33,408 bases of DNA from Candidatus Firestoneibacteriota bacterium (GTDB lineage Bacteria > Oederibacteriota > D2-FULL-39-29 > CAIOVX01): assembly GCA_903915125.1 (NCBI GenBank), contig CAIWRR010000016.1, positions 1 through 33,408 of the forward strand. Direction: 5' to 3'. A program made the position numbers and the translations under genes. The notes under the pieces are model-generated. The model saw nothing but the letters and a program-made list of their open reading frames with translations, did no database searches and had not been told where the DNA came from. Shown one piece after another: positions 19,341 to 33,121 of this stretch; the first letter of the stretch is position 1, and each line of letters opens with the position of its first letter.

Positions 19341-19431
19341 TTAGATGCTCGGACGCGCAGATGTGCGGATGCGCGGCAATGTTTTCATGTTTTGTCTTAC
19401 TGCGCATCTGCGCTTCCGCGCGTCTGCGCCT
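19341..19431. mobile_element. MITE-like hairpin element built of GYGCRGAT octamers
   Basis: The left arm (19355-19374) and right arm (19410-19429) are inverted copies of tandem octamers matching 17 of 20 bases, separated by about 35 AT-richer bases. On the minus strand the element starts directly after the TAG stop of the sugar transferase. The arms are the same word family as those flanking the S23 gene at 31830-31859 and 32315-32344, so this could be a gene-less relative. No transposase or target duplication is evident. Confidence 0.5.
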
Positions 19432-20829
19432 CTAGTACGCTCCTTCTCTCTTCAAAACCACCTTCACCGTCTTTATCAGAATCACAATATCCAACCAGAG
19501 CGACCAGTTCTGGATGTACCAGGCATCAAGCACCAGCCTTTCGCTGAAAGATTTCTTGTTGCGGCCTGATACCTGCCAAAGGCCGGAGAGTCCAGGATTA
19601 ACTTCTGTAATGGTTCCAAAATAATTCCCTATATCTTTCTTTTCTCTTGGCAAATACGGCCTCGGCCCCACCAGGCTCATATCTCCGCAAACTATGTTAA
19701 AGATTTGCGGGAGTTCGTCCATGCTGTATTTCCTTATAAACCGTCCGACACCCGTAACTCTCGGGTCTTTCCTCAGTTTAAAATAGGTCTTCCACTCACA
19801 TGCAAGCTTTTTATTTGATTTGAGCGCGGCACGGAGTATCTCTGCGGCGTTTATATACATACTTCGAAACTTGATGCATTTAAAGTTATGGCCATCCCTG
19901 CCGATGCGTTCTTCGACCCAAAAAGCCGGACCGCGCGAATTGATTTTAATTACAAGGGCTATGAGCGCAATAAAAGGAAGCATAAGAATCACGAGCGGTA
20001 CGCTTATCAAAAGGTCAAAGATCCTTTTGACGAACATGTTGAACCACTTTTTGAGATTATTCCTTACGTTTAGTATCAGAAGCTGGCTCTCAAAATGAAA
20101 ATCCATATCGCTCTCAAAAAACGGTATCCCGAGCAAATCAGGGATAAAAGACACACGGTGAACTCTTTTCTGCAGGCTGTTTACGAGACCAATCATCTTT
20201 TTGGCGTTCATACTGGGTATGGCCACAATAACTTCAAGTTTTGGCGTCAGGAATTTTTCTATTTCGGATATCTTACCGAGAATTTTAACGCCTTTAATGC
20301 TCTTGCCTGCCTTACCCGGTCCGTCGTCGAGAAAACCAATAACTTCACAACCCATGCTCTTTTCTGCCAGGTAGGACTCGAGCAGAACCCTGCCTGTCGT
20401 TCCGGCGCCTATTATCAGCACTTTTCTTTTATTTAGTCCGGCAGCAAAAAAAAGTCTCTTTGCGTAATATCTCAGCAGCGGAAAAATCCAGACACCATTC
20501 AGGAAAGTGAGCACAAGGATGGTCCTTGAAACGGTAGCCGTCATCTTGCCTAAAGAGACAATCGCAAGCACGCTGATTGTTGCAAGTAACGCAGCTTTCC
20601 AGGTTATTTTGATCTCTTCCCAGAGCGGCAAGCGTTTCGTGTAAAGATTTTCATACCAGAAAAAGAAAACAAATATTACCGGCAGCCACACGGGATTAAA
20701 AACTGCAAGCGGGAGGCGCTCAGGCAGCGCCAAATAGTTTGGGAAAATAAAACATCTTATGTAATAGGATAACTGATAGGAACAGAAGATTCCGAAGACA
20801 TCGGTTATCAGCAGCAGTAAAAGCCCCAT
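19432..20829 (-). CDS. Initiating sugar-phosphate transferase (WbaP/WcaJ-like polyprenyl glycosylphosphotransferase)
   Basis: It starts glycan repeat-unit synthesis by moving a sugar-1-phosphate from its nucleotide carrier to undecaprenyl phosphate. About four N-terminal membrane segments (residues 1-110) are followed by a CoA-binding-like Rossmann domain (KVLIIGAGTTGRVLLESYL). A membrane re-entrant helix (DLLISVPLVILMLPFIAL) leads into the catalytic Bac_transf domain: VEERIGRDGHNFKCIKFRSM, YSMDELPQIFNIVCGDMS, LVGPRPYLP and PGLSGLWQVSGRN. At 465 aa it matches WbaP-type proteins. The start shares one base with the stop of the GtrB-like gene (TAATG). It likely defines the reducing-end sugar of the O-antigen. 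Confidence 0.92.
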   Translation of the reverse strand: MGLLLLLITDVFGIFCSYQLSYYIRCFIFPNYLALPERLPLAVFNPVWLPVIFVFFFWYENLYTKRLPLWEEIKITWKAALLATISVLAIVSLGKMTATVSRTILVLTFLNGVWIFPLLRYYAKRLFFAAGLNKRKVLIIGAGTTGRVLLESYLAEKSMGCEVIGFLDDGPGKAGKSIKGVKILGKISEIEKFLTPKLEVIVAIPSMNAKKMIGLVNSLQKRVHRVSFIPDLLGIPFFESDMDFHFESQLLILNVRNNLKKWFNMFVKRIFDLLISVPLVILMLPFIALIALVIKINSRGPAFWVEERIGRDGHNFKCIKFRSMYINAAEILRAALKSNKKLACEWKTYFKLRKDPRVTGVGRFIRKYSMDELPQIFNIVCGDMSLVGPRPYLPREKKDIGNYFGTITEVNPGLSGLWQVSGRNKKSFSERLVLDAWYIQNWSLWLDIVILIKTVKVVLKREGAY

Positions 20830-30559: not shown

Positions 30560-30599
30560 TTCAGTTAACTTCTCCTTTTCCTTTTTTGCCAACGGTCTT

Positions 30600-30762
30600 C
30601 CGTCCTCCGGCATCTGTCCTCAGCCCTTAAGCATCCGGCCTTCTAAAACTCTAATCATCCGACTGTCTTCTGTCCTCCGTCTTCATCCCCTGCTCACTGT
30701 CCTTAATCATCCAACCCTCTAAACATCTAAACATCCATCTGTCACCGTCTACCGTCCTCATG
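30600..30762. repeat. Mixed heptamer/octamer degenerate repeat between rfbG and rfbH
   Basis: On the minus strand this junction mixes heptamers of GACRGAR type (GACGGAG, GACAGAA, GACAGTC, GACGGAA) with octamers of GATGTTTA type. On the plus strand two exact octamers CTAAACAT stand at 30719-30726 and 30727-30734. The array reaches into both genes: the last residues of RfbG (EDGRR) are encoded by it, and an upstream in-frame ATG for RfbH lies in it. Shared words with 16920-17049 include GACAGAAGAC and GGAAGACCG. Confidence 0.7.
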
Positions 30763-31923
30763 CTCATACTCCCCAATCTGCCTCAAACACGCCTCTCTCG
30801 CGTCATATCCATTCAGAACATTGATATTCCACTCTACAACCTTCTCCAGCGCTGTTTCAATATCCCACTTAGGGTACCAGCCCAATTGCTTTTTTGCTTT
30901 ATTATTATCAAGCTGCAGGAAGTTTGCTTCATGGGGATGCCTGCCCGGCTGAACCGCGCAGGATTTTTCAGAACCCCAGAAGGAGCAGAATTTTGAAGCC
31001 ACCCAGCCTACCGGTTTGCAATCCTTTGAATCCGGCCCGATGTTCCAGGCGCCTGAATACTTCGTTCCGTTTGCATAGAGTTTCTCGCAGAGCAACAAAT
31101 ACCCGCTAAGCGGCTCAAGAACATGCTGCCACGGACGCGTAGCCTTGGGATTCCGTATCTTTACCCGTTTCCCGCCCAAAATTGCGTCAACACAATCAGG
31201 AATCAGCCGGTCTTCTGCCCAGTCGCCGCCGCCTATAACATTGCCCGCCCTGGCAGTCGCGACAGCAACCTTGTGTTTCTTATACTCGCCCGCATTGAAA
31301 AAAGAATTCCTGAAGGAAGCAGTTACTATTTCCGAGCAGGCCTTGCTTGCAGAATAGGGATCGTACCCGCCGAGTTTCTCTCCTTCACGGTAACCTTTAT
31401 TATGCTTCTCAAGGTTCTCGTAAACCTTGTCCGTGGTTACATTCAGAATAACTCTTACCGTTCCGCAGGCACGAGCCGCTTCAAGCAGGTTTACGGTGCC
31501 CTGCACATTAACCTGAAAAGTCTCCGCCGGATCTCTGTAGGATTGCCTTACAAGCGGCTGTGCCGCCAGGTGGATAACGATTTCCGGCCTGAAAGCCTTC
31601 ATAACGGTTTTCAGCTTTCTTGCGTTCCTTATATCGCCAATGTTATGCTGTACCAGGGGTTTGGCCCGGGCGAGCGTGAAGAGGTTCGGCCTGGTGTCCG
31701 GTTTGAGCGCGTATCCGCAAACCCGCGCCCCCATCGAGGTAAGCCAAATGCTAAGCCAGGCTCCTTTGAAACCGGTGTGTCCTGTGAGAAACACTCTCTT
31801 GTTTTTCCAAAATGCACGCTGTGATTGACGCGCGGATGTGCGGATGCGCGGATGCGCAGTCGTTTGAGCAATTGAGAGCAAAGACTGATGCTCATCCTTC
31901 TTTTTGGCAAACTGTTTATTCAT
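30742..31923 (-). CDS. rfbG: CDP-glucose 4,6-dehydratase (RfbG/DdhB) with repeat-encoded N-terminal extension
   Basis: It converts CDP-glucose to CDP-4-keto-6-deoxyglucose. The extended SDR fold shows VFLTGHTGFKGAWLSIWL, VIHLAAQPLVRQSYRDP, NVTTDKVYEN, YDPYSASKACSEIV (Y-x3-K) and RAGNVIGGGDWAEDRL, all diagnostic of RfbG. The conserved domain begins at FWKNKRVFLTG. Before it lie about 35 residues (MNKQFAKKKDEHQ to RQSQRA) that are partly encoded by GYGCRGAT octamers of the S23 element. The ATG at 31923 follows the S23 stop by one base (TGAAATG) and has AGGGG eight bases upstream, so translation is likely coupled. The C-terminal EDGRR is encoded by the junction heptamers. Confidence 0.9.
   Translation of the reverse strand: MNKQFAKKKDEHQSLLSIAQTTAHPRIRTSARQSQRAFWKNKRVFLTGHTGFKGAWLSIWLTSMGARVCGYALKPDTRPNLFTLARAKPLVQHNIGDIRNARKLKTVMKAFRPEIVIHLAAQPLVRQSYRDPAETFQVNVQGTVNLLEAARACGTVRVILNVTTDKVYENLEKHNKGYREGEKLGGYDPYSASKACSEIVTASFRNSFFNAGEYKKHKVAVATARAGNVIGGGDWAEDRLIPDCVDAILGGKRVKIRNPKATRPWQHVLEPLSGYLLLCEKLYANGTKYSGAWNIGPDSKDCKPVGWVASKFCSFWGSEKSCAVQPGRHPHEANFLQLDNNKAKKQLGWYPKWDIETALEKVVEWNINVLNGYDAREACLRQIGEYEHEDGRR
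31830..31859. repeat. Inverted arm (rfbG side) of the S23 element: GYGCRGAT octamers
   Basis: Units GCGCGGAT, GTGCGGAT and GCGCGGAT and a partial GCGCAG stand in 8-base register on the plus strand. The arm is the inverted partner of 32315-32344 (24 of 30 bases matching). It lies inside the rfbG reading frame, in the N-terminal extension. Confidence 0.8.
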
Positions 31924-31924
31924 T

Positions 31925-32278
31925 TCAAAAGCCCCTAAATAGCTTTGTTTTGAGAGCATTGATCCTTTTCCCAAGCACATACATCTTCTCTTTCAATATC
32001 TTGTCTTCTTTTAGGTAATCCAATTCTTCACAAACCGCCAGTATCGCATCAACTTCCGATAGTGAAGCATTCGCAATTACCAGAAAACTTCCAAAATCCT
32101 TTGCAGTTTTTCTGCTCTTTCCTTCAGCAATATTTAGAGCCACAGAAACGACAGCCCTTCTAAGCTGCTGTTTCAAGACGTACTCTTCGGATTTAGGTAA
32201 TTGTTCCGAGACCTTGTACACATCTTTTATCAATTTTACGCTTTCCTTCCAAATTTCAAGTTCCTGGTACATATTCAT
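31925..32278 (-). CDS. Four-helix-bundle protein (S23/IVP family)
   Basis: This small basic protein belongs to the family first seen in 23S rRNA intervening sequences; relatives include the Avd partner of diversity-generating reverse transcriptases. Family signs are LEIWKESVKLIKDVYKV at the start, LPKSEEYVLKQQLRRAVVSV and NIAEGKSRKTAKDFGSFL (the R-R-A-x-x-S-x-x-x-N-I-A-E-G core), and SLSEVDAILAVCEELDYL. At 117 aa it is full length and intact. GGGGG precedes the ATG. It sits between rfbF and rfbG, flanked by inverted octamer arms. The biochemical function of free-standing members is not established; nucleic-acid binding is the usual suggestion. There is no functional link to sugar synthesis. 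Confidence 0.9.
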   Translation of the reverse strand: MNMYQELEIWKESVKLIKDVYKVSEQLPKSEEYVLKQQLRRAVVSVALNIAEGKSRKTAKDFGSFLVIANASLSEVDAILAVCEELDYLKEDKILKEKMYVLGKRINALKTKLFRGF

Positions 32279-32314
32279 CTTACATCCCCCATTTCATCAT
32301 GCTTGCTTTTGTTC

Positions 32315-32344
32315 TTGCGCATCTGCACATCTGCGCCTCCGCGC
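32315..32344. repeat. Inverted arm (rfbF side) of the S23 element: GYGCRGAT octamers
   Basis: On the minus strand the units are GCGCGGAG, GCGCAGAT, GTGCAGAT and a partial GCGCA, in 8-base register. It begins six bases after the rfbF stop codon and lies 36 bases upstream of the S23 start. Confidence 0.8.
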
Positions 32345-32350
32345 ATCCAC

Positions 32351-33121
32351 CTACCACACCTTCCACGGAGCCTTCCCTCTCACCCACATCTCTTCCAACT
32401 GGTTCTTATCGCGAAGCGTGTCCATCGGCTGCCAGAAACCCGGGTGCTTATAGGCAAAGAGTTCCTTGTCAGCGGCAAGTTTTTCCAGAGGTTCTTTCTC
32501 CCAGAAGGTCGTATCGGAATCGATATACTTCATTACACCGGGTTCGAGCACGAAGAAACCGCCGTTTATCCTTGATCCGTCGCCTTTTGGCTTTTCAACG
32601 AAGGAAACCACTCGGTCTTTATCATCAATCTTAATCGCGCCAAAACGCCCGGAGGGCTGCACGGAAGTCATTGTCGCAAGTTTCTTGTGGCTCTTGTGGT
32701 ATTTGAGGAGTTCCGGTATATTTACGTCGCCAACTCCGTCGCCGTAGGTAAGCATAAATGTCTCATCGCCAATATACTTACTGACCCTTTTTATGCGGCC
32801 TCCGGTCATGGAGTTTAGTCCGGTATCTACCAGGGTTATCTTCCAGGGTTCCGCTTTGGAATGGTGGACCTTTACGCTGTTGTTTTTCAGGTCTATTGTA
32901 ACATCAGACTGGTGCATGAAGTAGTTCGTGAAATACTCTTTTATCATATAACCCTTGTAGCCAAGACATATGATAAAATCATTAAAACCATAATGAGAAT
33001 AAATCTTCATAATGTGCCAGAGGATGGGTTTGTCCCCTACCTCAACCATAGGCTTGGGTTTCAACTGCGTTTCTTCTCCGAGCCTGGTACCGTAACCGCC
33101 GGCAAGAATGACTACTTTCAT
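32351..33121 (-). CDS. rfbF: Glucose-1-phosphate cytidylyltransferase (RfbF/DdhA)
   Basis: It makes CDP-glucose from CTP and glucose-1-phosphate, the first committed step to CDP-linked deoxysugars. Motifs: [20 protein letters not shown] (nucleotide-binding loop), [33 protein letters not shown] (metal-binding Asp), [18 protein letters not shown], and the end region [19 protein letters not shown]. At 256 aa it is exactly family length. GGGGG lies five bases before the ATG, and a candidate promoter is just upstream. It starts the rfbF-S23-rfbG-rfbH run. Confidence 0.95.

Follow-up and report, generated by a model that had tools for sequence, protein, structure and literature searches.

The 33,408-nt stretch of DNA analyzed here (the window) belongs to a genome of 2.01 Mb (G000; 88% complete) and carries, between the sugar-nucleotide genes rfbF and rfbG, an intact gene for a protein of the S23 family that is enclosed by two inverted arrays of short repeats. 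The relevant features, mostly in the order in which they would be transcribed, are as follows.

32351..33121, minus strand: rfbF, glucose-1-phosphate cytidylyltransferase, the upstream host gene (TIGR02623, E=4.5e-134)
32316..32347, minus strand: 5' arm in the transcript, GATGCGCGGAGGCGCAGATGTGCAGATGCGCA, beginning a few bases past the rfbF stop codon
32286..32290, minus strand: GGGGG, a Shine-Dalgarno-like sequence between the 5' arm and the S23 gene, 7 nt ahead of the S23 ATG
31925..32278, minus strand: gene for an S23 / 23S rRNA intervening-sequence protein (117 aa; intact; four-helix bundle; matches to PF05635, TIGR02436 and 2gsc)
31932..31936, minus strand: AGGGG, a Shine-Dalgarno-like sequence for rfbG, within the 3' end of the S23 gene
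31921..31923, minus strand: likely rfbG start codon (by frame: S23 TGA, one base, then ATG)
30742..31923, minus strand: rfbG, CDP-glucose 4,6-dehydratase, its N-terminus extended through the 3' arm (TIGR02622, E=1.1e-144; frame)
31827..31858, minus strand: 3' arm in the transcript, an inverted octamer array within the rfbG frame (..TAHPRIRTSAR.. in translation)
19342..19434, minus strand: hairpin built from the same octamers but enclosing no S23 gene, located between ugd and a sugar-transferase gene (z=-6.8)

A profile search places rfbH further downstream of rfbG, and the interval between these two genes (30589-30760) contains a degenerate direct-repeat array with GTCCTCC and CATCC-type units that has no inverted partner. 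The S23 protein matches PF05635 with E=4.6e-31 and 107.6 bits (curated cut-off 33.8) and TIGR02436 with E=4.5e-29 and 100.9 bits (cut-off 24); its nearest solved structure in a PDB sequence search is 2gsc (XCC0516; E=4.9e-19), and the closest named locus, from Ca. Firestonebacteria, encodes a protein that is 100% identical to it. The preliminary description of an intact S23 gene between rfbF and rfbG is thus borne out by the profile matches of all three genes. It had also reported inverted arms built from GYGCRGAT octamers with 24 of 30 positions matching, and this is exactly what is found at 31830-31859 and 32315-32344; the best local alignment pairs 26 of 32 positions (31827-31858 with 32316-32347). 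The arm score of 17.0 is unmatched by any of 4,538 window positions with the same geometry (maximum 12.0) or by any of 2,000 shuffles (maximum 13.5), and structure prediction for the RNA pairs the two arms (z=-3.5). An Rfam scan of 31600-32500 returned no matches, and we therefore rejected the notion that the arms represent a known RNA.

The relationship between the 3' arm and rfbG deserves particular attention. From the ATG, which a single base separates from the S23 stop codon, rfbG can be read without interruption through the 3' arm and into the Rossmann motif FWKNKRVFLTGHTG. The interval from the arm to this motif contains no start codon, and every plausible start is located upstream of the arm; hence, the 3' arm is part of the rfbG reading frame. 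Such read-through of the 3' arm is seen in four lineages with different arms (G000, G001/G003, G005, G004).

The association of S23 genes with inverted arrays extends far beyond the window. In a survey covering many bacterial phyla and one archaeon, inverted arms were found at 64.7% of 116 distinct S23 genes and at 2.1% of 243 other ORFs from the same loci, the latter being controls unmatched for spacer length. A set of 74 S23 loci with adequate flanks, drawn from many phyla, gave a similar picture, as 73% of them score above the 99% quantile obtained from 3,448 positions in the same loci, and in a set of plasmid records (mostly complete cyanobacterial plasmids and one from Gemmatimonadota) 9 of 14 S23 genes possess arms, compared with 2.5% of 314 control positions. 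The flanking arrays consist of degenerate 7-10-mers; among the 116 genes, the best array period is 7 in 45 cases, 8 in 19, and 9 in 4. On the cyanobacterial plasmids, the gene pairs that enclose an S23 gene include cas10-cmr3, cas6-cas4 and the ribonucleotide reductase pair nrdB-nrdA (L237, L248, L241). The S23 protein evolves under purifying selection (dN/dS about 0.09), and it is thus maintained.

About a third of the S23 genes lack flanking arms, and these are found downstream of tRNA or tmRNA genes in 15 of 41 cases, as compared with 4 of 75 for the others. Many of the arm-less genes form a clade that lies just downstream of tRNA/tmRNA genes on the same strand (L038, L041, L042, L044, L046, L107, L108, L110, L114-L116, L119, L124, L143), and many of its members have an inverted-array hairpin in the interval between the RNA gene and S23, frequently with a CGGTC motif. 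The tRNA 3' end does not recur as a direct repeat downstream of the arm-less genes. That these genes might be rRNA intervening sequences (IVSs) was rejected, as Rfam identified tRNA and tmRNA neighbors and not a single rRNA. Carriage by phages was likewise discarded, since the phage records yielded no match and none was confirmed in viral contigs. Two further observations concern individual loci: the distant genome G052 (L153, L154) contains 19 S23-like matches, many of them paired divergently at distances of a few hundred bases, and at L059:3030-3160 a broken S23 gene harbors an internal insert with inverted ends of its own (ATGCCGGAGAAAACCTCACCC...). Of 53 S23 genes at tandem junctions, 50 have the sense orientation, and so do 75 of 79 ordinary operon genes. 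This equal bias led us to abandon orientation as proof of an RNA-based mechanism; it points to no more than a dependence of S23 on host transcription or a tolerance limited to this orientation.

The sequence of the arrays follows the type of the S23 protein that they enclose. Between genomes, the k-mer similarity of the arms rises from approximately 0.09 for S23 proteins with less than 40% identity to 0.29 at 50-60% and 0.41 at 60-80%. The corresponding correlation amounts to r=0.465 (within-genome permutation, p=0.0005) and persists for pairs from different phyla (r=0.411; within-phylum permutation, p=0.0002); it is weak when same-genome pairs are considered alone (r=0.145, p=0.08). A tree of the S23 proteins, which is based on 106 columns and has many unresolved forks, contains an octamer clade with Firestonebacteria, Elusimicrobiota and the archaeon Jingweiarchaeum, a 7-mer clade (GCTCATAG) with Nitrospirota, Omnitrophota, Bacteroidota, Myxococcota and Thermodesulfobacteriota, and a clade with 9-10-mers. 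Judged from these sequence comparisons, S23 and its arrays are probably inherited and exchanged as one unit.

Related genomes afford a view of such units at one and the same site. The preliminary description had proposed to compare rfbF-rfbG junctions with and without the element; junctions free of an insert do exist (G007, G013, G018, G011), and a tie between the arms and S23 is supported. In G000 and G002, S23 is enclosed by GYGCRGAT arms; the sister species G001 and G003 carry another S23, whose arms are made of a different octamer, GGTTGGAK, and the S23 gene of G005 is degraded and has GCTTGGAT arms. In G009 (L163), a GxxExxY gene (PF13366, E=1.4e-40) between AACCACAGAGGACACAGAGG arms takes the place of S23. 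The S23 gene of G004 likewise precedes rfbG, and an assignment of this gene to an unrelated site was dropped for this reason. Between G000 and G001, the S23 genes share 71% DNA identity and have different arrays, while rfbG and rfbF are 88% and 87% identical, respectively; between G001 and G003, S23 is 99% identical, rfbG 92% and rfbF 83%. These values are incompatible with a single clock and hence indicate that the cassette has been exchanged. Homologous recombination also moves the rfb region, as S23 and rfbG are 100% identical between G000 and G002 and rfbF is 88% identical. In the S23 tree, the proteins of G000 and G004 are grouped (support 99/89; 74% amino acid identity), although their rfbG genes are only 66% identical.

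The second S23 gene of the window genome provides a case of presence and absence. It is located upstream of thiM within different arms (GTTTACC-type heptamers), the cassette being inserted between a TPP riboswitch and thiM (L002 / G000:C138), and the same junction is empty in G002, whose ThiM protein is 98% identical, and in G003, as would be expected for a mobile element. Neither excision nor transposition was seen, and no clear target-site duplication was recognized at the thiM site.

Arrays also occur where S23 does not. Doublets of GYGCRGAT number 19 in the window genome as against 1 for a reversed control, a non-random excess, and 8-48 in each of three relatives from the same genus (G001-G003); they are most numerous in G001 (assembly 87% complete), in which no S23 gene has such arms. 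Most array sites of the window genome, including further GYGCRGAT sites outside of the window's own, are without S23, so that the octamers are not specific for this gene there. The GTTTACC-type heptamer is dispersed as well (25 hits versus 2), and it too forms hairpins that lack S23. The junction between the sugar-transferase gene and ugd carries a hairpin without S23 in G000 and G001, one arm in G001 being shorter by exactly 16 bases, the length of two octamers, and in G003 it carries a broken S23 gene between GGTTGGAK arms. One hairpin together with its loop (C49) has a further copy elsewhere in G001 that is 88% identical across 101 nt, and G000 and G003 contain copies that are related in the loop but have arms of the GGTT type. 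An S23 gene conserved at the rfb junction without the octamer arms, or arms scattered with no tie to S23, had been named beforehand as findings that would speak against the element. Taken literally, half of this is what we see, since S23 is retained at the junction in relatives whose arrays differ, and some arms enclose no S23 gene. Because the arrays change together with the type of S23, however, the link between the two is strengthened.

How, then, should the element be understood? The preliminary description had envisaged an IVS acting at the RNA level within an mRNA, whose arms could pair and perhaps be cut by RNase III so that the rfbF and rfbG messages are split. The sense orientation of S23 between complementary ends is indeed what is found in rRNA IVSs that RNase III excises (PMC4990558), and the predicted pairing of the arms makes such a structure possible. 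Nevertheless, we regard message splitting as improbable. With the 3' arm located downstream of the rfbG start and in frame in four lineages, a cut at this position would part rfbG from its own start codon. Furthermore, the mismatches in the arms at 74 loci, counted without a positive control, comprise 82 G-U and 102 A-C pairs (p=0.16), and as G-U pairs do not exceed A-C mismatches, the counts give no hint that pairing in the sense RNA is under selection. A different view would treat the arrays as generic dispersed intergenic repeats, between two of which an unrelated small gene happens to lie. The prevalence of array sites without S23, and the octamer-rich genome G001 with no matching S23, are in keeping with it, but chance should not place arms at 65% of S23 genes versus 2% of controls (64% versus 2.5% in the plasmid set), nor should it generate the co-variation of arrays and S23 across phyla or cassettes that differ as a unit at a single site. 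This explanation is already disfavored, and we give it little chance.

We accord a similarly small chance to the idea that the hairpins are REP/REPIN-like palindromes which owe their mobility to a Y1 transposase (RAYT/IS200-type), S23 merely traveling along. Each same-genus genome encodes PF01797 proteins, and dispersed palindromes would fit REPINs; the informative flanks of the Y1 genes, however, bear a motif of their own (GGGGACAG..) and not the S23 arrays, which follow the S23 type. A Y1/RAYT enzyme was consequently rejected as the driver, the resident Y1 genes being accompanied by their own GGGGACAG palindromes. It is hardly credible, finally, that S23 is an anciently co-opted operon gene that regulates rfbG translation together with its fast-evolving arms through coupling or attenuation. 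The adjacency of S23 and rfbG with translational overlap in G000-G005 and a dN/dS of about 0.1 would suit such a role, yet the same cassettes occupy unrelated operons (TPP riboswitch-thiM, cas10-cmr3, nrdB-nrdA), and several rfbF-rfbG junctions do without one.

In our assessment, the window probably contains an IVS-like and presumably mobile S23 element outside of rRNA, with S23 recognizing its own arrays. It would consist of a cassette of approximately 0.5 kb in which an apparently promoterless S23 gene lies inside inverted arrays of 7-9-mers, and S23 would most likely recognize these arrays as a hairpin or as repeated binding sites. The cassette may be a small and mostly selfish mobile element that lodges in operons in the sense orientation, and array hairpins without S23 could be its non-autonomous relatives. 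At the rfb junction, rfbG appears to have become fused in frame to the cassette, starting after the S23 stop codon with an N-terminus encoded by the 3' arm. To our knowledge, S23 possesses no known nuclease motif, and movement of the cassette would for this reason need a partner enzyme in trans. A reverse transcriptase, either of the element's own or resident in the genome, was rejected, as PF00078 was found in none of G000-G003 (assemblies 86-98% complete).

A broader grouping is conceivable, and we put it forward tentatively, at slightly less than even chances. In relatives, 25 of 27 GxxExxY genes (PF13366; PD-(D/E)XK superfamily) are enclosed by inverted arms that are of the type AACCACAGAG..CACAGAG (L163, L176-L205). 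S23 elements, GxxExxY cassettes and gene-less array hairpins might form a single undescribed class of small prokaryotic mobile elements, in which inverted 7-9-mer arrays co-evolve with the encoded protein, S23 is the array-recognizing protein, and rRNA IVSs are members that have landed in rRNA. Searches of openly accessible journal papers turned up no account of S23 or GxxExxY genes that are enclosed by arrays of this kind. The match between S23 type and array across phyla provides a concrete predicted ligand for S23, whose role thereby becomes directly testable, and many degenerate arrays of 7-9-mers in genomes from the environment may find their explanation in S23 elements. The rRNA IVSs would be placed in a wider family that inhabits operons, tRNA/tmRNA neighborhoods and rRNA.

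Several known systems invite comparison. The intergenic TAACTGA repeats of Beggiatoaceae resemble the S23 arrays as short tandem repeats with a 7-base unit, but they are described as direct repeats (PMC4679880), and the text of that report uses none of the terms S23, four-helix and intervening. REP/REPIN palindromes with their RAYT transposases are similarly dispersed and tied to a protein gene; in the S23 system, in contrast, tandem 7-9-mer arrays pair with S23, and the resident Y1 genes display the GGGGACAG motif. The Avd proteins of diversity-generating retroelements (PF22296 / NF033474) form a related four-helix-bundle family to which the window S23 has weak HMM matches that remain below the cut-offs (27.4 versus 80 bits and 22.9 versus 40); this relationship suggests a role connected with nucleic acids, but a search for the reverse transcriptase family PF00078 in the window genome and its three genus relatives found no member.

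The closest counterparts are the IVSs of rRNA. IVSs with an S23 ORF have been named for Coxiella, Leptospira, Xanthomonas and Brucella, and the S23 protein, whose function is unknown, has been treated mainly as their passenger (PMC4990558); insertions in the 16S and 23S rRNA of CPR bacteria likewise contain S23 ORFs (PMC11270868). The 23S IVS of Coxiella possesses terminal inverted repeats that form a 28-bp stem and, in its 5' arm upstream of the S23 ORF, a variable number of tandem GACAGAT heptamers (PMC4990558). Kinship with these sequences, as originally proposed for the window element, is upheld by an S23 (PF05635) ORF in the sense of the host transcript between complementary, stem-forming ends and by comparable sizes (428-444 nt for the 23S IVSs and approximately 0.5 kb here). 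Unlike them, the window element resides outside of rRNA genes, between the protein-coding genes rfbF and rfbG, its arms are arrays that track the type of S23, its 3' arm is read in the frame of the next gene, and cutting by RNase III is disfavored.
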